A stretch of DNA of 64,000 nucleotides from Nothopassalora personata. Taxonomy: Eukaryota; Ascomycota; Dothideomycetes; Mycosphaerellales; Mycosphaerellaceae. The notes below the pieces were generated by a model, which saw only the letters and a list, made by a program, of their open reading frames with translations, did no database searches and was not told the DNA's origin. The DNA is taken from positions 806,001-870,000 of the forward strand of contig CM066291.1 in the NCBI GenBank assembly GCA_033816765.1. Direction: 5' to 3'. This document shows positions 358 to 40,567 of the stretch, one piece after another; within the stretch, counting starts at the first letter, position 1, and every line of letters begins with the position of its first letter. The position numbers were made by a program, and so were the translations under genes.

Positions 358-3300
358 TCAACCAGGCTTGATAGCCGCCTCGCAGTCAGCCATATTCAGC
401 TGCTGCACGAAGTCGGCGTGCTTGTATTGATCCAGTGCCTTCGTGAAGCCGTCAGCTATCTGGTCGTTGGTGCCTATCCAGTCAACCGTGATCTTGCGCT
501 TGGCAATGGCTTCACGGATGTAGTGATAGCGCGTGTCGATGTGCTTAGTGCGACCGTCCACACCGCTGCTTCGCTTGGTGATGTCGATCGCTGGCATGTT
601 GTCCTCGTACAGGGTGATGGGGAATAGCGGTCCCTTGTAGTCCACCTCCTTGAGCAGGTTGCCAATGCTGATGGCTTCCTTCGCTCCAAGCGTTAGTTGG
701 ACATACTCAGCCTCTGTTGATGACAGTGTCACGATAGTCTGGCGGCCGGACTTCCAGGAAGTTGGTGCCCCCAGCATCGTGAAGACGAAGGCTCCTGTGG
801 ATCGCCTATCGTCAAGGTCGTCTCCCCATGAGGCATCAACGTACCCCTTCAGTTGAAGATCGTGCTCGGTGTCTGCGCCCTTGAAGCACAGTCCACGGTA
901 CTTGTGACCAACCAGATACTTCATGACCTGCATAACAGCGTCTATGTGTTCTACGGTTGGGTTGGCGAGAAAGCGGCACAGCAGACAGACTTGATAGCTG
1001 CAGTCTGGTCTGGTCATCATGACCACCCAGAGACATTCACCTGTAGCCTTCTGGTAGCGGCTCTTCAGTGTCGCGTCTGCCACGTACTCAGCCGGCGCCT
1101 TACGGTGTTGATGCTTCGCATACATTGGCACCTTCGGCGGCTTGCCAGTGATGTTGTACTCGTCAGCCAGCTTCTGTAGATAGCCGTCTTGTACGATGTA
1201 CAGCGTACGCTTCTTGCGGTCTCGTATAATGCGCATCCCCAAGTAGTGGTGGACGTCGCCGAGCTCACGCATCTTGAACTTGTCCTGCAGCGTTGCTGCG
1301 ATTGCCGCTACGCCTTGTCGATCCTTCGTGATGATAAGAAGGTCGTCCACGTAGATGACAATGATGGAGCCTGACACCTCGTGCTTGAACACGCAGATGT
1401 CGCTCATGATTGGAATGAAGCGCAGTGAGCGCAGGTATTTGCTGAGCTCCTGGTACCACAACAGTGGTGACTGCTTCAATCCATACAGAGCACGTCGCAG
1501 CTCACATACTTTGTTGCTATGTTCAAAGCCATGTGGCATTTCGACGTAGACCTTCCGGCCTGTGATGATAGCGTTGAGGAAAGCAGTCATGATATCGTAC
1601 TGCTGACACTCGAGGTCGTAGTGTGCGATCAGTGCGTATAGCATACGCAGAGTGGATGGCTTCACCACTGCTGCATACGTGTCGTCGTAGTCACCTTCAC
1701 GTTGTGTGTCACCACGGACTACCCAGCGTGCCTTGAAGCGGCTGATCTTGCCATTGGCATCAAGCTTGATAGCATAGACCCATCTGCCACGCAGCACACG
1801 TGTGCCAGTTGGCAGTGTTGTCTTGTCCTTGTACAGCCATGTCTCGTATTGCTCGAGACTGGCGAATTCAGCTTCTTCGGCTGCACGCCACTCGGCGTGT
1901 TGTGGTGTTGCCATTGCGGCCTTGTGGCTCTTCGGTATGAGCACCGTTGCTGGATCTGGCCAGTCGGTTGCTGCCATGAAAGCAGTCACAGTCGCATGTG
2001 GCATCTCAGCAAGTTGCTTGCGGGTCGTCTTGCTGAGTGAGTGACACAGGGCCCTACGCTGCTTGCGGTTGGCTTCATATTGATAGCCGTTCAATGGGTC
2101 TCGAACTTCCGCAGGAGGGCGACGATTGCGCTGTGGCCGACCTGATGGCGTAGGTGGCACAGGTTGCCGAGCTGGCTGTGCCGGAGGTGTCGTGAAGTCG
2201 TCTTCATCGTCATCCTCAACAGAAGGTCTCGGAGGTGTTGTTGGTTGCACTTCCGGAAAGTCGTCAGGCGTCTCATCTTGATAGGAGTCCACTACTTCCT
2301 GTGAAAGGTCCTCATCCGACTGCTCGAGTGGTGAGTCCGCTGGACGGTCGATGACGGTGATGTTCTTCGGTGCTGTAACACCCCCAGAATCACCACCCCC
2401 AGGAGTCACACCGCGCTCAGCACCTGCTCGCCGTAGTCCTGTCTTGCGGTTGCGCTCCACTGGAAAGATGTCTTCTCGAGTGATGAGCTCGTCGTCTTGA
2501 TCTTGCTCAGTCTCAGAGTCACCGTCTTGGGCTGCCATAGGGTCGTTGCCCTCGATGAATTGAACGTCCTTGGTTCTGAACACTCTATGCGCCTTAGCAA
2601 CATAGGCACGGTAGATGGTGCGGCTTTCGTATCCAACAAGCTTGCCCTGCAACGAGCGGGCGTCAAACTTCTCACCGCGACCGACGTTATGGTCGTACAC
2701 GAAGGCGCGGCAGCCGTATGCTTTGAGGTGTGACAGGGAAGGCTTCACTGGTTGAGTGCCCTGCCAAGCGTTGATAACTTCTAGTGGTGACAGGCCCTTG
2801 ATTGCTGCACTTGGTGTCAAGTTAAGAAGATAGACCGAAGCTTTCACTGCTTCTGGCCATAGGCTAGGTGGAAGGCCAGCGTCGATGAGCAGCTTACGTG
2901 CCATGACACAAACGATGTGGTTGCTGACTTCCGCACCACCATTCTGCTCTGAAGAATGAGGTGCTGTGACTTGAAGAGCGAAGCCCTCATCGCGTGAGAG
3001 CTGCGTGAGTGAGTGTCCTCCATATTCGCCACCCCCATCTATGCGGAAGATCACAATTGCTGTGCCATATTGTGTCTTCACATGACGGTGGACCACTCGA
3101 ATATGCTGCGCAGCACCGTCCTTCTGTGCGGAAGCGAATACTGTGCGTTGTAGGCTGGCCAGGCAGGTGAATAGCGTGAAGTAACGCTCCTTGCCAATGC
3201 CAAGGTTGCGGACCGTGACAACATCCACAGCAACAATATAGTATGGTGTTGTTGGCCGCACCATCGGAATGCGGTTGTAGACCTTGTGACCCATCCCCTT

Positions 3301-5139
3301 ACGACAGGGGATGCACTCGCGTGGGTGCTTGCTGAGGTCGCTATCACTGTTGCCAACAATGGTGATGCGCTTGTCGTTGTGAAGCTGCAGCAACTTGCGG
3401 CTGTGGATGTGTCCAAGTCGGCGGTGCCACAGGTCTCCTGTAGCAGCTGTCGATGGCTCGACCTTGGACGAAGTGAGGGCTGTCGCTGAGTCCTTCATCT
3501 TCAAGAATGGCAGTCCATTGTGGGTGTAGCAGTGTGCCACCGTACGCGCAGCAGTCCCCTTTGTGAATAGGATCTGCTCGTCGTTGCGATAATAGACACC
3601 CTTGCGGCGAAGAGCCTCTGTCGAAATCAGATTGGCTGCAAGGCCTGGTACGTACAACACCTGTGAGAAGCCAGTGATGCCGCATCCATACAGATCCAGT
3701 TGGACGATGCCACAAGCTGTAGCAGTGATGGTGCCACTGCCTGTCTTGATAAGAACAGTGCAGGGCCGGTAGTCCATCATATTGCTCAGCTTGTTTGTCA
3801 TGTGAGAAGTGCAGCCAGAGTCCACAACCCAGTCGGTGTTGCTCTTCGCTGCAAGCAGCGCTGAGGTGTCTTGAATGATGTCGTCCTGGCCCTCAGTCAT
3901 ATACATGCTGTGAGAGCCGTTGAATGGAGTCATCAAGTCCTCGAAGTTGGTAGCGCCGTGAGCCGCAAACTGTGCGGTCTCAGTGTGCTGTGCGTCAGTG
4001 GTGTTGTTGACTTGCTGACGCTGTTGTTGATTGCCCTGCTGCTTCTTCTTCCAGGTAGCAGGTGCAAGCTCAGGGTGTAGGTTCCAGCAACCAGCTGGTT
4101 GGTGAGTGGTCATGCCACAACCACTGCAGGGGTCGTATTGAGGCTTCTGCTGTTGGTTGTTGTTGCCACCACCATTCTGATTACCACCACGAGCGCCGTT
4201 GCCGTTGCCGCGGCCTCCACGACCTCCTCGTCCGCCGCGTCCGTTACCACGTGGTGCGCCGCCGCCGCGAGGGGTGTTGCCGTTGCCCTGTGGGTTGGCA
4301 GGGTTGGCGTTGTTTTGTTGCTTCACTGCGAGATTGGCTGACTCGGACTGTTGCGCAGTCGCCTCATCAAGCAGATCACTGATCACCTTGTCGAGTGTGA
4401 TAGTGGTACTGTCCTCGATCTTTCCAGTAAGCTGCCTCATCTGTTCACGCTTTGAGGACGCGAATGTTGGGAAGTATGGTGAGATCTGATACAGGAAGCG
4501 GAAGAGAGCTTGAGCCTTTGATATGGCTAACTCGGTGTTCTTGAGGTTGGCCAGCTTCGACTGATATTGCTGGCAGAACTTGTCAAGGTTGGAGCCACCA
4601 TATGTGTGTGACTCGAAGTCCAGGTACAACGAGTACTCTTCGGACTTGCCAGTTTGACCGTATGTGGACTTCAGATGGTCCCATAGGTCTTCCGGTTGTT
4701 GGTAGGCTTTGCAGTTGTCTGCAATAGACTGACTGCAGTTAGCAATAATGAGGGCGCGGGCTTGATACTTCTTTGCCTCCCATGCCTCGATACGCTCTTC
4801 GAGTTCATAGTCTTCCTCATTCTTGCGCTTCGTGGGCTTCGGCTTGAGGGCAGTCTTGTCGACAAACCCCCATAGCAGGTCACCTCGCAGGACTGACTGT
4901 AACATATCAGCCCATCTCGAGTAGTCGTCCTTGCCTTGAAGTTTGGAGACACCAGGGGTGCCGTTGTTGTTACGGCCGACCATGTTGCTAAAGCCGCGAG
5001 TTGATACAGCAGGCTTCTTGGTCTTTCGGGTAGCAGCCGACTCGGTCTGCTGTTGTTGCTGGCTCGGAGTGGCGACAGACTGCTGCGCCAGCGGTATTTC
5101 GAGTCCAGTGAGGTCAGTGTTGTTACCGTCAGTATCCAT
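358..5139 (-). CDS. Copia Gag-Pol polyprotein, 1593 aa, intact
   Basis: Single open frame. In order: a Gag region (about 60-270) with an RGG/asparagine-rich linker; a CCHC zinc knuckle of spacing C-x2-C-x4-H-x4-C at about 334-347; the aspartic protease motif DSG at about 438; a GAG-pre-integrase HHCC region at about 570-615; the integrase core with D near 641, D near 700 and E near 731; a copia-type reverse transcriptase with YVDD at about 1263; and RNase H (YVDASWG near 1433, STEAEY near 1475). All key catalytic residues are present and there is no frameshift between gag and pol, so Gag and Pol would be made as one polyprotein. Start chosen as the first ATG, about 20 bases downstream of the inferred LTR end. 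Probably still able to encode its enzymes; activity is inference. Confidence 0.93.
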   Translation of the reverse strand: MDTDGNNTDLTGLEIPLAQQSVATPSQQQQQTESAATRKTKKPAVSTRGFSNMVGRNNNGTPGVSKLQGKDDYSRWADMLQSVLRGDLLWGFVDKTALKPKPTKRKNEEDYELEERIEAWEAKKYQARALIIANCSQSIADNCKAYQQPEDLWDHLKSTYGQTGKSEEYSLYLDFESHTYGGSNLDKFCQQYQSKLANLKNTELAISKAQALFRFLYQISPYFPTFASSKREQMRQLTGKIEDSTTITLDKVISDLLDEATAQQSESANLAVKQQNNANPANPQGNGNTPRGGGAPRGNGRGGRGGRGGRGNGNGARGGNQNGGGNNNQQQKPQYDPCSGCGMTTHQPAGCWNLHPELAPATWKKKQQGNQQQRQQVNNTTDAQHTETAQFAAHGATNFEDLMTPFNGSHSMYMTEGQDDIIQDTSALLAAKSNTDWVVDSGCTSHMTNKLSNMMDYRPCTVLIKTGSGTITATACGIVQLDLYGCGITGFSQVLYVPGLAANLISTEALRRKGVYYRNDEQILFTKGTAARTVAHCYTHNGLPFLKMKDSATALTSSKVEPSTAATGDLWHRRLGHIHSRKLLQLHNDKRITIVGNSDSDLSKHPRECIPCRKGMGHKVYNRIPMVRPTTPYYIVAVDVVTVRNLGIGKERYFTLFTCLASLQRTVFASAQKDGAAQHIRVVHRHVKTQYGTAIVIFRIDGGGEYGGHSLTQLSRDEGFALQVTAPHSSEQNGGAEVSNHIVCVMARKLLIDAGLPPSLWPEAVKASVYLLNLTPSAAIKGLSPLEVINAWQGTQPVKPSLSHLKAYGCRAFVYDHNVGRGEKFDARSLQGKLVGYESRTIYRAYVAKAHRVFRTKDVQFIEGNDPMAAQDGDSETEQDQDDELITREDIFPVERNRKTGLRRAGAERGVTPGGGDSGGVTAPKNITVIDRPADSPLEQSDEDLSQEVVDSYQDETPDDFPEVQPTTPPRPSVEDDDEDDFTTPPAQPARQPVPPTPSGRPQRNRRPPAEVRDPLNGYQYEANRKQRRALCHSLSKTTRKQLAEMPHATVTAFMAATDWPDPATVLIPKSHKAAMATPQHAEWRAAEEAEFASLEQYETWLYKDKTTLPTGTRVLRGRWVYAIKLDANGKISRFKARWVVRGDTQREGDYDDTYAAVVKPSTLRMLYALIAHYDLECQQYDIMTAFLNAIITGRKVYVEMPHGFEHSNKVCELRRALYGLKQSPLLWYQELSKYLRSLRFIPIMSDICVFKHEVSGSIIVIYVDDLLIITKDRQGVAAIAATLQDKFKMRELGDVHHYLGMRIIRDRKKRTLYIVQDGYLQKLADEYNITGKPPKVPMYAKHQHRKAPAEYVADATLKSRYQKATGECLWVVMMTRPDCSYQVCLLCRFLANPTVEHIDAVMQVMKYLVGHKYRGLCFKGADTEHDLQLKGYVDASWGDDLDDRRSTGAFVFTMLGAPTSWKSGRQTIVTLSSTEAEYVQLTLGAKEAISIGNLLKEVDYKGPLFPITLYEDNMPAIDITKRSSGVDGRTKHIDTRYHYIREAIAKRKITVDWIGTNDQIADGFTKALDQYKHADFVQQLNMADCEAAIKPG

Positions 5140-33090: not shown

Positions 33091-33793
33091 GTGAGCAAAG
33101 TAAGCGGGTTGCATGCATTTGAGCGGCGTTTTGATGGGGACCAGGCATATGGCCTAGACACGGGGCACAGACCAATACCCTAGGAGTATCAGGTCCAATA
33201 GATGAAAGTGTGATCAAGGTGCCAACGGCACGAGTGAGGAGAGGAAACAGCATATCCAAGCTACACCCACCTCTTTGACCACAATGTTGATTGCAGACCA
33301 CGTGTACTGTCAAGGCCCTGAAACACCACCGGGTAGTGCTTCTTCAGACCTCCGGTTGGCTACAACAAGGAATAGATTGAATTACGATCGAAGCTAAAGG
33401 TTGAGTTTACAAGCAGGATGTGTCGGTGTGAAGTGTGATCCCCCTGGGCTTTGTTCGGAACCCGTTCGCCTGTTCTGACCACGCTGATGGTGTATGGAAC
33501 ATAGCGAATCCTCATACGCGCACTGCAATCCTTGCAAGGCGACGCGAACCGTGGCAGGGTTGTTGCCCTCGGCACGCTAGCCATTGCACTTCACTTCGAC
33601 TTTTAAGCTCCGACGGCAAGATCTGGCCATACATTGACAACTCGATATGCACAATCATCTTGAACAATCCTGATGCGTTCATAGCGGCTTATTGTCCGCC
33701 GTCACGTCGAACCCCCATCCCCTGTTTCCCTCCTAACGTACGCGTCATGCTACATCACAGCGAGCTGAGGTAAAAGTCCTCTGACTAGCGGGC
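33091..33793. other. Intergenic upstream of the Zn2Cys6 regulator
   Basis: 703 bp, no gene or repeat seen; presumably the GALT 3' flank and the promoter of the regulator. Confidence 0.4.
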
Positions 33794-35719
33794 ATGGAAG
33801 GCTCGCCTTCAGACTCAGCCGCGGTGCTCGCGCTCCGCGAACAATTCGGAGATCGAAAGCCTCCAGATATCACGCGCAAGATCACCGCCTGCGTAGCATG
33901 TCGTAAGCAAAAGATCAAGTGCCACATGGGCCCTCACGGCCAGCCGCCCTGCACACGCTGCAAGAAGCGCGGCTTGTCGTGTACGGTCAATAAGAGCTTA
34001 CAAATGATCCTGGAGAGTGATGCGAGCTGGAAGCACACTGTCGATCGCAAGATCCGAATTCTGGAGACGGCGCTGGGGAAAGTGGCGAATCATTTCAGTC
34101 TGCCGGATCTTATTGACGAGGCTATTGAGCAGGATGAGGAGATTGGAGAGGATGTGGAGCAGGGTGCTGTGCCCACGCCGCCGATGAGAACGGGGACTGC
34201 GCAGATTTCACCGCAGGCGGAGAAGCATACGCCGCTGAATTTTGAGGTTGTGATGGACCCGGATTCTGGCCCTGCTGCGATTCCGGGGTCTGTAGTGTCG
34301 CCTATTGCGATTCCCGGGCTGGAAACGAATAGAGCTGATCAGGACATCATTACAAGGGGAGTGATCAGTCTGGAGGCTGCGCAGAGATACCTTGACATCT
34401 ACCAGAACCGCCTCGACCACTTCCTCTACAGAATAATAGGCGATCGGCGGGACATGGCGGAGGTTCGCACGGCATCACCACTGCTACTGGCTGCTATCTG
34501 TACAGTCGGTGCGCTACATCTGGCTACATCCGACTTCGAGAAGTGCTACCAAGAGTTCGCTTCAATCGCCGCTTCCCAAACTTTCTCCCGCCGCAACACC
34601 GTGGACGACATTAGAGGTCTTTGCGTCGCGGCTTTCTGGTTGAGCGGTATCTCGTGGACTTGTGTTGGGGCTGCAGTCCGTATAGCAACCGAGATCCAGC
34701 TGCACAGGAGTATCTTCCAGGCTCTTAAGGGTGACAGAACTCACTACCAGCGCACAAGACTGTACTACTTGGTCTTCGTGTGTGACCATCACTTCTCTGT
34801 TGCATACGGTAGACCGCCAATGACGAGAAGAGACGATGCCATCCGGGCGTGTATGCAGTTCCTGGAGACCGCCAACGCGGTAGAAGATGATCAGCGACTG
34901 ATCTCCCAGGTTCAATTCTGGTCGGTAGGGTCTGATGTCTATGAAACCTTCGGCATCGACGTGGAACGTCCGCTTGACTCGACCATGATAGAGCCGCTTA
35001 GACGATTCAGCATTTCTCTCGACTCGATTCGCAACGAGTGGACGAGACGGTTTCGACTTAACAAGTACGTCGGTGACTATCCAAGGAAAGGGGTTGGATT
35101 GCACTATCATTTCGCCAAGCTCTACTTGTTCTCAATGGCCTTCCGCGGTATAGGCAAACCTGGGTTCAAAGCACCAGATGTTGCACTTGATATTGATGAA
35201 AGTGCGAACACTGCTGTACTGTCAGCGACTGCCATCCTGCGAGCTGTCAATGATGACGAAGAAATCCAAGGCTTCCTCAACGGCCTGCCATCATACTTCG
35301 ACCTCATGATCGCCTTCGCCGTAGTCTTCGTGTTGAAGGTGGCGACCAAGTACGCGGCCTCAGTCCGTGTCGACACAAGTGAGATCGAAAGTCTCGTCGA
35401 GGAGCTGGTCGTCGTCCTCAAGAGGATCACTTCCAACATGCACCCTCGCCACCTGCTGGTGAGCGTAGCCAAGGGTGCAGAGAACCTGCTCGAACGATGC
35501 TGTCCGCAAGAAGTCCACGGGCCAGTCCCAGCGAATGCTCATGTTACCATGAATGAGCCCAACTTTGACCAGAATCTGTTCGATATGTCCGTCGATGACT
35601 GGAACGGGACGTCGTTCAACAACTTCTTCATGCATGAGTTTGACTTCCTGACAAACCAGGGTCAGATGAATGGTTTCCAGCCTGATCTCAATTGGGCCAA
35701 TATGCAGCAGATGCAGTAG
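33794..35719 (+). CDS. Zn2Cys6 fungal transcription factor
   Basis: 641 aa, intronless. The binuclear cluster is CVACRKQKIKC, then CTRC and a final Cys (residues about 33-65). A short coiled-coil linker (SWKHTVDRKIRILETAL) and an acidic stretch follow, then the fungal-specific regulatory domain (about 190-450), containing CDHHFSVAYGRPPMTRRDDA. This segment and the VNKSLQMILE linker are reminiscent of the Leu3/PrtT group, an inference from memory. The C terminus is rich in N/Q/M and may activate transcription. It lies next to the PhnZ/PhnY-like pair (convergent with the first gene) and is the only local candidate regulator. Confidence 0.93.
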   Translation: MEGSPSDSAAVLALREQFGDRKPPDITRKITACVACRKQKIKCHMGPHGQPPCTRCKKRGLSCTVNKSLQMILESDASWKHTVDRKIRILETALGKVANHFSLPDLIDEAIEQDEEIGEDVEQGAVPTPPMRTGTAQISPQAEKHTPLNFEVVMDPDSGPAAIPGSVVSPIAIPGLETNRADQDIITRGVISLEAAQRYLDIYQNRLDHFLYRIIGDRRDMAEVRTASPLLLAAICTVGALHLATSDFEKCYQEFASIAASQTFSRRNTVDDIRGLCVAAFWLSGISWTCVGAAVRIATEIQLHRSIFQALKGDRTHYQRTRLYYLVFVCDHHFSVAYGRPPMTRRDDAIRACMQFLETANAVEDDQRLISQVQFWSVGSDVYETFGIDVERPLDSTMIEPLRRFSISLDSIRNEWTRRFRLNKYVGDYPRKGVGLHYHFAKLYLFSMAFRGIGKPGFKAPDVALDIDESANTAVLSATAILRAVNDDEEIQGFLNGLPSYFDLMIAFAVVFVLKVATKYAASVRVDTSEIESLVEELVVVLKRITSNMHPRHLLVSVAKGAENLLERCCPQEVHGPVPANAHVTMNEPNFDQNLFDMSVDDWNGTSFNNFFMHEFDFLTNQGQMNGFQPDLNWANMQQMQ

Positions 35720-36001: not shown

Positions 36002-36692
36002 CTACGCGTCCAAACTCCGCGACCGTACCAACGAGCTCACAGCCGTATCTTTAAACCCCTCGAGATCCGACGTGACCATGTCCGGATCCTTCGCCAAACC
36101 ATCAAACTTCCTGACCGCCAACTTCTCGTCCAACAGCGGATCTTTCTCCGCCTTCAGAACTTCCTCCGCCGTGAACGGTCCGCCCTGAAACTTCAAGGTC
36201 GTCTTCGAAGTCTGGCTTAATCCATCGCAGTAAGCCCGATCCACGGGTGTGAGATAGCGCTTGACCATGACGTGGGCTCCGACCAACTGGCAGATTTTGT
36301 CGCTGAAGCCGAGCGTGCGGAGGTAGTGTTCGCCGACGATCTGAATGGTTAGTGAAGAGTCATCCATCTCTCGGGCGACTACGAAGGCGGGGAAGAAAAG
36401 TACCTCCCTCGTGGCTTGCCTTTCCGACGTATGTGCCGTCTTCATCGACCATGGAGTCCATGTTATCGGATGCTGGGATGAAGCGGCCGACATCGTGGAG
36501 GAGAGCGCCGAGGATTGTGTCTTCGTCGCATCCGGCTTGCTGGGCTAGGGTCGCTGCTTGGAGGGAGTGTTGGAGCTGGGAGACGTTTTCGCCTAGGTAG
36601 TCGCTGTTGCCTTGTTTTGTGATGAAGGTGAAGAGGTAGGTCACTGTCTTTCTAGCTTCTGCTTCCGTGGATGACTGTGCTTGGATGGCCAT
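36002..36692 (-). CDS. PhnZ/TmpB-type HD-domain diiron oxygenase, frame possibly broken at the splice site
   Basis: Exon 1 is 36692 to about 36404 and exon 2 is 36340-36002, giving about 207 aa if joined at the conserved point. Residues that build the mixed-valence diiron site of bacterial PhnZ are all present: His42 (QLQHSLQ), His66-Asp67 (LLHDVG), His94 (ASHE), His118 (GAHVMVKRYL) and Asp175 (RKFD). The substrate-lid pair Tyr32 and Glu35 (DYLGE) and Lys122 are also kept. PhnZ and TmpB cleave the C-P bond of hydroxylated aminoethylphosphonates. The gene is divergent from a PhyH-type oxygenase (37100), as expected for a two-step pathway. Oddity: with the only GT donor (36403) and the clear CTAAC...CAG acceptor (36341), the frame is off; a GAGG duplication at the donor explains this. 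MIOX is excluded by size and motifs. Confidence 0.85.
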
Positions 36693-37099
36693 GGTGACTG
36701 TCGTTCCCGAGTACTGAAATGTTGATGGTCATGACAGGCTTGTGCGTGGCGTCAGTGCGGTGGTACATCCAAGACGACAAGTCAAGAGACGATAGAGTTC
36801 AAGTCTCTCAAATCCTCGACGATCTCAGCAGCCCGGCCATTCTGATGTCGCGGAGAGAATGCCGCACGTCGTGCAGTCACAACTCGATATCAAGTTCCCA
36901 GCATTTGTAACATCGGTCTTCTTCCCGACCACGACCCAGTCGATCACTTCTCCAGAAATCGACAACCCTCGGAGAAGTACCCGGGTCCTCCAGGTTGAGT
37001 AGTGAGGGCAGGGAATAAAAGTGGTTGGTATGCACACCATCCAAGACATGGACAGCGAGTGCAGTGCAGTGCAGTGCAGCAACCTCCAGGACGACCACA
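36693..37099. promoter_or_regulatory. Shared promoter of the PhnZ-like/PhnY-like pair
   Basis: 407 bp between divergent start codons. It contains four copies of AGTGC in tandem at 37058-37077, 20 bases before the oxygenase start, probably within its 5' leader. Confidence 0.55.
37058..37080 (+). repeat. (AGTGC)4 microsatellite
   Basis: Four perfect AGTGC units followed by AGC, in the leader of the PhyH-type oxygenase gene. Confidence 0.9.
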
Positions 37100-37999
37100 A
37101 TGTCCCACCTCACCCTGACCCCCTCGCAAATATCCCACTTCGACACCCAAGGCTACCTCATCCTCCGCCGCCACGAACACAACCTCGTCAACCCCTCCCA
37201 ACTCCAACAATGGACGCGCGAAGTCCGCTCCCTCCCCCGCGAGCACGGAAAATGGATGCCCTACGACGAAGTGACAGCCACCGGCGAACGCCAACTCATG
37301 CGCATCGAGAATTTCGTCGACTACCACCCCAACTTCTCCTCCCTTCTCCACGGCGAAGCCCTCGCCGCAATCTTGAAGCAACTCACCCGCCACGACATGC
37401 TCCTCTTCAAAGACAAGATAAACTACAAGCTCCCCGGAGGAAACGGCTTCCGCCCCCACCTCGACGCCCCAGCCTACGACCACATCGGCTCTTCCAAACT
37501 CGAACACACCACCGCCAACCTCGCCGTCGACGCCGCAACGCTGGCGAACGGATGTGTACAAGTGGTCCCCGGCTCGCACCGCATGTGCGTATCCCTCTCG
37601 CAGGGCGGCGCAATCTCCTCCGACTGGGAAGAATCCCACACCTGGGTCCCTGTAGAGCTGGAAGCAGGAGACTTACTAATTTTCGGGTCGCACTTGGCGC
37701 ATAGATCAGCCAGGAATGGGACGAAGGAGGCGAGGGCGAGTGTGTATGCGACGTATTATCGGAAGGAGGACGGAGAGGGGTTGAGGGAGAGGTATTATGA
37801 GGATCGACGGGAGAATTTTCCGCCGGATCACGGTGAGTTCTTTTCTCTTTTTTGCCCCGTCGATGCTCTCGTGGGGCGGTTCGGCTGACGGTGCTGGTTT
37901 CTCTTAGAGAGGGTTCCTGGGAAAGATTATGGTGCTGGCGTGGCGCGGTATGCGTTTGCTGCGCCGTTTACGAAGATTGAGGAGGCGAAGGTGGTGTAG
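37100..37999 (+). CDS. PhyH-family Fe(II)/2-oxoglutarate oxygenase, PhnY-like
   Basis: Exons 37100-37832 and 37908-37999, with a 75-nt intron, give 274 aa, matching bacterial PhnY-type 2-aminoethylphosphonate hydroxylases. The start LTPSQISHFDTQGYLILRR is the usual PhyH opening. The facial triad is His120 and Asp122 (RPHLDAP) with distal His201 (AHRSARN); a conserved Arg for 2-oxoglutarate follows near 210. VVPGSHRM is the typical loop before the distal His. PhyH enzymes hydroxylate many substrates (phytanoyl-CoA, secondary metabolites); the phosphonate role is inferred from its divergent PhnZ-like partner. The ATG at 37100 is preferred over 37025 because homology begins there. Confidence 0.92.
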
Positions 38000-38600: not shown

Positions 38601-40567
38601 TCAAGCGTTCGCCGCTCGCACCGCCAGCGTCAGTTTCTCATTCCGTTCGACCGCGATATCGAGGTCTTCGTCGCCTTCGAGGCGGTAGTACTCTCCGTCT
38701 TTCTCATCTCGATACTCTATATCGAGGGCTTCATCATTTTGATCTTGTCCATTGTATTCCAGTCTCCTCCGTTCCACAATCTTTCGGTATAGCTCATCGT
38801 GCGTGAATTGTCCTCGTGGTGGCATACGGATGACCACACATGTGTCTCGATCAAACCACGCCTTGACCTTGACTGGCTGGGCGTTGGCCGCCGGTGGCTG
38901 CCGTTGAGCAGGCATCCCGGCTGCATTAGGTGGTGGTTGCGATGTGAAGCTTGCGCTAGCCTGCGATGGCTGTGGCCGGTGCCCATGTTGCCCATTCGAG
39001 CTCTGCGACTGAGTGTACTGATGTGACGGCGCAGACTGATACGATCCTTGCGATGAAGGTGGCGGTGGATGTCCGCGTGGCTGTCCGGGCTGCTGGAGAG
39101 GCGTAGTGTTGGGAGAGTTTTGCGATGCTGCCGAGTGCCTATCCTTAGCTACCATTGGTTTCGCGTGCTCGTTCAGATCCACAGCGCTTTGATCGACTTC
39201 ATAGTCACCCTCGCGCGGCGCGAAGAAGTTCCTGACAAGTGACGAAGTGACGATATGCTGTGGTAACCTCAACAAATCCCGCAGGTACTCGTCCAGGTTC
39301 GCCCTTCGTCCCTCGCTGATGTTGTCAGTAACAAACTTCACGGGCCCAGGCATATATGGCAGTATCCGCTGCTTGCCGGGCACTTGTCCAGCCTCTTCCG
39401 GGAATGTATTTATCAGGTTAATCTGCAGCTCGTAAAAGTCCTCGTAGATGCGGGATAGATCCCAGTGTGTTCCATTGGTAAGCCGGCACTCGACCACGAA
39501 ATGGAACTTCTCATCGGCAAAGATATAACGCGGCACAGACGCTCGCACTGGCGCGAAGAGGTTCTGCTGCTGCTGTGTCTGGTATGAGTTGCTTGCTCCT
39601 CGTGGGTGGCCCATCCCGTTGTGCTGTCCGTTCTGCAAGCTCATGCGGTCCATCCCTTGTGTCATGCTGCCCACGGTAGTCCCCGAAACAGTGCCTAGTG
39701 GTATGCTTGTGTTTTTGTATTCAGCGGCCATCTTCTTCCACTCTTCGACTCGTGGTATGCCAGCTTTCTGCACCGCGTCTACCGGATCTTCCACCGCCTT
39801 GCCCGTTGTCATGTCCCGTATCTCAATGAACGACACGGGTATCAGACCAGGTCCACCAAGTCGCGTGATCGGCTTCGCAACGAACCATTCTGGATTCGAC
39901 TGCGCAATGACTATGATGGCCTCGCCCTCTTTCGCATCCAGCTCGTCCGGCCGCTCGGCGTGAAAGTCGAAGCAGACAATACCATAAATGCCTCCCGGCG
40001 CCCTGCTGATGGACGCCGTCGGTCTGTGGGTAGGGCCGGGCCTCATGGGCACAGTAGTCGAACCGCTCGTGCGCGGCGCAGATGTAGCGTTCGGCGGTGT
40101 CGATCTCTCGGCGTACCCGCTGTCGTGCGTCGTGCTTGTTATCGATCTGCTCGAGTCCCCGCTGTCGCGCACCGTCTTGCCCACGTTCTCGAAGTACTTG
40201 ACGGGCACCAGTCCGCGCTCATTCCGCAAGGGATTGCAGGCTTCGTACCAATCCGGGTCGTTTTCGCGCGCTACCACGTGGAGGAAGTCGCCGGCTGAGA
40301 AGGAGAGGTACATGTCGGAGTCGGCGGGCGCGACATAGTCGTATATCGCTTTGATGACCTGTTGAGTGCGACCATCGTGTAAGCAGCGGTGTCACCTCCG
40401 GCCTGCGGGCCGAGGCATTCTCGCGTGATTGCATGCATACATACCTTCTTTGGGGGCTCAATGGCAACGGCGTCCTTTTGCGGTATCGACACTTGGACGG
40501 GCTTGGCGGAGTCGTGCTTGTCGCTCTTGATGGAGCGGCGGAACTTGGAGAGGGTCAGCTTGTTCAT
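38601..40567 (-). CDS. bemA: Polarity scaffold Bem1
   Basis: Exons 40567-40445 and 40358-38601 give 626 aa. In order: a basic N terminus; SH3-1 (about 42-98, IKAIYDYVAPADSD...LVPVKYFE); SH3-2 (about 163-225, IYGIVCFDFHAERPDELDA); a PX domain (about 314-423, ASVPRYIFADEKFHFVVECR); a Q/P-rich linker; and a C-terminal PB1 domain (about 538-625). This exact order defines Bem1/BemA, which holds Cdc42, its exchange factor Cdc24 (through PB1) and PAK kinases at growth sites, and in filamentous fungi also links to NADPH oxidase. The 86-nt intron falls inside SH3-1. The start at 40567 (MNKLTLSKFRRSIKSDK) is the most likely, though an upstream exon cannot be ruled out. Confidence 0.94.

Follow-up and report, generated by a model that had tools for sequence, protein, structure and literature searches.

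A probable phosphonate-utilization cluster of a Zn2Cys6 regulator and divergent PhnZ-like and PhnY-like genes in the fungus Nothopassalora personata

The window—the whole stretch of 64,000 nucleotides of Nothopassalora personata DNA analyzed here—contains a locus that we consider, with good confidence, to be a small fungal phosphonate-utilization cluster composed of a regulator, a PhnZ-like HD oxygenase, and a PhnY-like hydroxylase. Gene content, metal ligands, the fold of relatives, conserved linkage including the regulator, and a repeated promoter motif were observed, and from these we infer the function; the substrate, activity, catabolic direction, and regulation of the cluster are predictions. 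In the proposed mechanism, the PhyH enzyme would act first, with Fe(II), 2-oxoglutarate, and O2, and place a hydroxyl group on the carbon bonded to phosphorus in an aminophosphonate, which is most likely 2-aminoethylphosphonate (AEP) or an N-methyl form. The HD enzyme would then split the C–P bond with a mixed-valent di-iron center and a second O2, the predicted products being phosphate and glycine or a betaine. Both genes are probably controlled by the neighboring Zn2Cys6 protein via candidate CGG-N8-CCG sites. An earlier note on this DNA had proposed a two-step oxidative pair, for which family matches and linkage speak, but the unit comprises more than two genes, and in this assembly the HD frame appears broken; its functional guess is likely correct in kind. 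The features of the locus are as follows.

33685..33698, no strand: CGG-N8-CCG repeat, ~100 bp upstream of the regulator ATG
33794..35719, plus strand: Zn2Cys6 regulator, 641 aa; convergent with the HD gene; adjoins the pair in two other fungi
36692-36002, minus strand: HD (PhnZ-like) gene, 407 bp away from the PhyH gene
36404..36692, minus strand: HD gene exon 1, 289 nt, ATG at 36692; encodes Y32, E35, H42, H66-D67, and H94
36341..36403, minus strand: HD gene intron, 63-nt GT-AG, exons joined out of frame
36002..36340, minus strand: HD gene exon 2, 339 nt with stop; encodes the fourth His ligand and the last Asp ligand
36693..37099, no strand: shared divergent promoter, 407 bp
36851..36864, no strand: CGG-N8-CCG repeat 1, predicted regulator site
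36914..36927, no strand: CGG-N8-CCG repeat 2, predicted regulator site
36970..36983, no strand: CGG-N8-CCG repeat 3, predicted regulator site
37100-37999, plus strand: PhyH gene, intact, one intron, 274 aa
37100..37832, plus strand: PhyH gene exon 1
37833..37907, plus strand: PhyH gene intron, 75-nt GT-AG, in frame
37908..37999, plus strand: PhyH gene exon 2, with stop

The HD and PhyH proteins match their families far above chance. The HD protein scores 157.6 bits for Phn-HD (TIGR03276; cut-off 214.6), 117.1 for TmpB (NF049941; cut-off 300), and 113.1 for PhnZ1 (NF052439; cut-off 300), and since all NCBIfam scores lie below the curated cut-offs, no equivalog is claimed. A sequence search of the PDB returned PhnZ (1.8e-29) and TmpB (6npa, 6.4e-28) and no other match at E ≤ 1e-3. 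All six residues of the ligand set H...HD...H...H...D are encoded in the gene. Among the best 120 of 294 HD relatives, H42 is kept in 118, H66 in 120, D67 in 119, H94 in 120, and the fourth His in 119, and the last Asp is present in 51 of the 51 covered by the alignment. The YxxE lid (Y32, E35), the Glu of which is described in the accessible text of PMC8177086 as touching the substrate amino group, is invariant in these 120 relatives. The fold was assessed on a model of the Baudoinia relative P0002 (mean pLDDT 87.9), which stood in for the window protein. At E ≤ 1e-3 this model has 10 PDB matches, each of them to PhnZ or TmpB; human and mouse MIOX follow at E 0.49 and 0.72. NCBIfam, the PDB sequence search, and the modeled fold of this relative support a placement of the HD protein with PhnZ/TmpB and not with other, non-phosphonate HD families, a grouping that the earlier note had set up as a test.

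The HD gene consists of two open exons of 289 and 339 nt, which are out of phase across the 63-nt GT...AG intron. The earlier note had credited the protein with every PhnZ diiron ligand and with the lid residues Tyr32 and Glu35; all of these are encoded, but the reading frame is discontinuous, and the numbers given for His118 and Asp175 fit the relatives and not the canonical splice of the N. personata DNA. With exons of these lengths, the canonical product runs off frame after His-Glu-Gly and would be devoid of its last two metal ligands. The His-Glu codons are separated from the intron GT by four nucleotides that belong to a tandem GAGG-GAGG, and the bridged reading has one residue more at the exon junction than 23 of 23 aligned relatives. 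Alternative splices were enumerated for GT-AG, GC-AG, and AT-AC pairs. Among them, the GT-AG combinations that keep the frame either delete conserved residues or require introns of 25–34 nt, a length that to our knowledge is hardly met in fungi, and the 63-nt GT-AG intron is the only plausible one for this gene in the assembly. An introner-type repeat as the source of this intron was rejected, as the 74-bp stretch around it matches the genome once, namely at itself. The frame break may represent an assembly error in the short tandem, a real lesion, or unusual splicing. Because the exons are out of frame, the HD copy in this assembly may not work.

In at least 39 listed relatives, the HD domain is fused to a C-terminal phosphonoacetate hydrolase (PhnA). 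The composite query behind this count was long enough to exclude single-domain proteins; it favors long proteins and is uninformative on fusion frequency. It yielded 56 proteins, 39 with HD plus PF01663 and seven with PhyH plus HD according to precomputed Pfam assignments. The sole fusion examined, P0248 of Zasmidium cellare, reaches 572.9 bits for TIGR02335 (cut-off 407.55) and matches PDB 1ei6 at 1.9e-113. The tree shows fused HD proteins scattered among solo ones, a pattern consistent with repeated loss or gain, or with split gene models; several of the "solo" entries from metagenomes resemble calls of a single exon. A PhnA is found neither in the window (best E 0.61), where the HD gene stops at 36002 and is followed by the regulator, nor in the N. 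personata genome of 54.5 Mb and 40 contigs (best 35.9 bits; cut-off 407.55). The same genome, whose fungal character shows in its introns, the Zn2Cys6 regulator, and the closest relatives, contains six PhyH matches and yielded no second PhnZ, no PhoF-type fused gene elsewhere, and no PhnX over the cut-off (30.6 versus 220 bits). Fusions of HD and PhyH in the order opposite to that of the PhoF-like protein P0241 were also encountered (L036, L043, L054, P0242, P0244, P0245, P0269, P0277, and P0293); their sources are bacteria and, for P0245 (mmetsp), a eukaryotic transcriptome. The published Penicillium phosphonoacetate hydrolase, a 43-kDa metal-independent monomer according to the accessible text of PMC4133637, is unlikely to be an HD–PhnA fusion, which comprises ~610 aa.

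Both phylogenetic trees were quick reconstructions with SH-aLRT support only and contain long branches for P0241 and the actinobacterial rows. The HD tree comprises 81 hand-chosen rows, among them 29 of the 74 bacterial HD loci in which no PhyH was detected, and the PhyH tree took in 26 of the 120 listed PhyH relatives. The window protein and that of Dothistroma septosporum form a pair in each tree (support 92 and 92), within a fungal clade supported at 95 (HD) or 97 (PhyH), and P0241, a PhyH–HD fusion like PhoF, is located just outside this clade. The end branches of the window proteins are longer than those of Dothistroma (HD 0.29 versus 0.13; PhyH 0.23 versus 0.16), as would be seen if the pathway were dead or dying in N. 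personata, with PhnA absent, the HD gene truly frameshifted, and hydroxylase and regulator alone intact. We regard such a decay as a serious possibility, although somewhat less probable than its opposite. The out-of-phase exons without a good alternative splice and the lack of a PhnA in the genome point in the same direction, as does the HD protein P0081 of Fulvia fulva, which has the first His ligand replaced by Pro and the fourth by Arg, ends early, and, judged by these changes, is apparently a decayed PhnZ in a close relative. Decay is opposed by both HD exons being otherwise fully open with all ligands kept, by the short tandem repeat being a possible spot for an assembly error too, and by the intact PhyH gene and regulator.

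The PhyH protein carries the iron triad H120, D122, and H201, so that the HxD...H motif described earlier as intact is indeed present, as well as the 2-oxoglutarate Arg R212; triad and Arg are invariant in all of the best 120 of 436 PhyH relatives. Among curated families, the PhyH protein scores highest with the PhnY methylphosphonate hydroxylase NF052437 (3.2e-44, 151.3 bits; cut-off 500), a match that is compatible with the PhnY-like label of the earlier note; all NCBIfam matches lie below the curated cut-offs. A model of the relative P0121 (mean pLDDT 90.8) matches many 2-oxoglutarate oxygenases about equally; hence, the PhyH fold leaves the substrate unfixed. That the best match is a methylphosphonate hydroxylase, PhnY of Gimesia maris, would suit a pair acting on an amino-free phosphonate, for instance methylphosphonate to phosphate and formate. 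This we consider unlikely: no TmpA or AEP-PhnY model was among the matches, so PhnY may be merely the nearest model, the lid Glu reported to contact the substrate amino group (PMC8177086, accessible text) is invariant among the relatives, and some relatives are automatically named AEP enzymes.

The HD and PhyH genes diverge from the shared promoter with 407 bp between their ATGs, just as had been described. Linkage in other genomes was approached by a proxy, that is, PhyH and HD relatives on contigs of exactly equal size. The lists comprised the best 120 of 294 HD and the best 120 of 436 PhyH proteins; one HD and three PhyH entries without a contig size were left out, as were 11 of the 56 composite-query matches (seven PhyH–HD fusions and four without HD). 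Herein, 27 of 117 PhyH relatives share their exact contig size with a listed HD relative (n = 164), compared with a mean of 0.63 and a maximum of 4 in a control with sizes shifted by 1–200 either way; seven of these 27 contigs are merely 2.8–6.3 kb in size. In addition, PhyH and HD locus tags are consecutive in seven species, namely Zasmidium cellare, Fonsecaea multimorphosa, Recurvomyces mirabilis, Cladophialophora immunda, C. psammophila, Capronia epimyces, and Penicillium verhagenii. Penicillium flavigenum speaks against linkage, with equal contig sizes yet tags far apart. Co-occurrence and linkage of both genes in related fungi, which the earlier note had asked for, are by these counts found in many ascomycetes. 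For bacteria, a PhyH gene was found in 6 of 79 HD loci in fetched DNA, some loci being shortened, and HD proteins of the PhnZ-like family therefore also occur without PhnY. Two actinobacterial plasmids exhibit PhyH–HD operons (L091 and L092, from Rhodococcus and Dietzia), the tandem genes lying beside a methionine-synthase-II-like gene, with another 2-oxoglutarate oxygenase and a GPR1/FUN34/YaaH transporter as further neighbors. On a Rhizobium rhizogenes plasmid (L093), the PhyH gene is situated between phosphocholine cytidylyltransferase and LicD genes.

Biosynthesis or non-phosphonate chemistry, with the PhnYZ likeness stemming from large superfamilies alone, is very improbable, for despite the size of the HD and PhyH superfamilies, the six PhyH matches in the genome, and PEP-mutase-like matches far under the cut-off (80.1 versus 319.55 bits), it is countered by the exclusive PhnZ/TmpB fold match of P0002, the conserved YxxE lid, HD–PhyH linkage above control, and the fusion of the HD domain to phosphonoacetate hydrolase in relatives.

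The probable phosphonate cluster extends to the Zn2Cys6 regulator, which is kept in place in Exophiala sideris and in a locus (L009) that is 64% identical. The Exophiala sideris annotation merges PhyH with the regulator in one gene model, which is 40% identical over 578 aa to the window regulator; the best regulator paralog in the N. personata genome reaches 32% over residues 18–421. Of 53 residues aligned by hand in the DNA-binding regions, 39 are identical between the window regulator and that of L009. In L009, PhyH and HD are likewise divergent; PhnA comes after the HD exon, and next are the Zn2Cys6 regulator and a PHO84-like transporter, an order that in reverse corresponds to the window order of regulator, HD, and PhyH. 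The PhnA exon of L009 (569.1 bits) lies above the phosphonoacetate hydrolase cut-off, and its transporter matches TIGR00887 on two exons (3.8e-20 and 9.1e-14), below the full-length cut-off. No transporter gene of this kind is present beside the window regulator among the listed open reading frames. A bacterial origin of L009 was rejected: its genes are split, it carries a Zn2Cys6 regulator, and it shares the gene order of the window. L009 (1-10645) is apparently a fungal contig binned as contamination in a Deltaproteobacteria metagenome-assembled genome (NYXK01000012.1). Another contig of the same assembled genome, L113:1175-2092, contains a PhyH gene 45–52% identical to the PhyH part of P0241, and the 4 kb of its sequence covered gave no HD match.

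The candidate operator was noticed post hoc. Across 5000 shuffles of the 407-bp promoter, three copies of the CGG-N8-CCG form arise in 0.02% and three copies of any tested arrangement or spacing in 1.1%. In L009, the 14-mer CGGACTTCCCACCG is located in the promoter of the pair, with an identical copy 245 bp upstream of the regulator ATG. The motif is unenriched across the whole window (20 versus 14.95 expected), and a second three-copy group at 40202-40412 spans the start of an unrelated SH3/PX gene. No CACGTG (PHO-type) site occurs in the promoter of the pair in the window or L009, and no CGG-N8-CCG occurs in the 3.4-kb locus of the clear PHO84-like gene of N. personata. The minus-strand translation of promoter positions 36864-36893 contains CDCTTCGIL, which is shared with the annotated N terminus of P0081 and suggests that this promoter DNA is conserved. 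The near-palindrome GCACGTCGTGC lies at 36864 within this stretch.

A broader reading, to which we give even chances, is that of a dedicated ascomycete phosphonate regulon consisting of a Zn2Cys6 activator with its CGG-N8-CCG sites, a PHO84-like transporter, PhnY, and a PhnZ–PhnA polypeptide, of which the window would hold a reduced form with a decaying PhnZ, without PhnA, and without a nearby transporter. If true, a single polypeptide would cleave C–P bonds in two unrelated ways, oxidatively through its PhnZ part and hydrolytically through its PhnA part.

Among known systems, the accessible text of PMC10574752 counts four oxidative phosphonate versions, including the fungal PhoF of Fonsecaea multimorphosa (AEP and APP), which is a precedent where the earlier note knew of no characterized fungal example. 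PhoF likewise combines PhnY and PhnZ, fused in a single protein in contrast to the two divergent genes of the window; the PhoF-architecture protein P0241 shares 44% identity with the window proteins in its PhyH part and 40% in its HD part. The locus is best read as an unfused variant of PhnYZ/PhoF, one that may be decaying here. The PhnY*/PhnZ pair of the marine bacterium HF130_AEPn_1, which converts AEP to glycine and phosphate, consists of the same two enzyme types, and its PhnZ has the same six ligands and YxxE lid and is the top PDB match by both sequence and fold. The window pair differs in being fungal, intron-bearing, divergent instead of in the bacterial arrangement, and equipped with its own regulator, and the sequence is distant from PhnZ (~38% in the fold match of P0002). 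TmpA/TmpB of Leisingera caerulea (trimethyl-AEP) share the predicted chemistry and the HD fold, the window HD protein remaining well below the TmpB cut-off, and GmPhnY/GmPhnZ1 of Gimesia maris (methylphosphonate), which include the best curated family of the window PhyH, have cut-offs (500 and 300) that the window proteins stay far under. The fungal HD–PhnA fusions such as P0248 have their HD domain in the same clade as that of the window, which lacks the C-terminal phosphonoacetate hydrolase; the Zasmidium cellare fusion adjoins the same PhyH gene (PRZ48_009811/009812). PhnZ is shown with different fusion partners, PhnY in PhoF and PhnA in the present relatives.

Growth of fungi on phosphonates and some of the activities have been reported (accessible text of PMC4133637 and PMC3905195), and beyond PhoF, no gene set assigned to them was found in the open-licence literature. 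Phosphonoacetate hydrolase is described in Penicillium and was undetectable in Geomyces extracts (PMC4133637, accessible text), and Geomyces uses AEP and exhibits phosphonatase activity, which is hydrolytic and not oxidative (PMC3905195, accessible text). In the open-licence literature, no account of a fungal HD–PhnA fusion or of the present cluster was found; in automatic annotation, the name 2-aminoethylphosphonate dioxygenase or phosphonoacetate hydrolase is already attached to some relatives. The locus and its relatives offer a defined and testable set of genes by which many fungi may use phosphonates oxidatively, together with a candidate regulator and operator. Elsewhere in the window, an open 1593-aa reading frame of a copia-type retrotransposon polyprotein is located at 358-5139.
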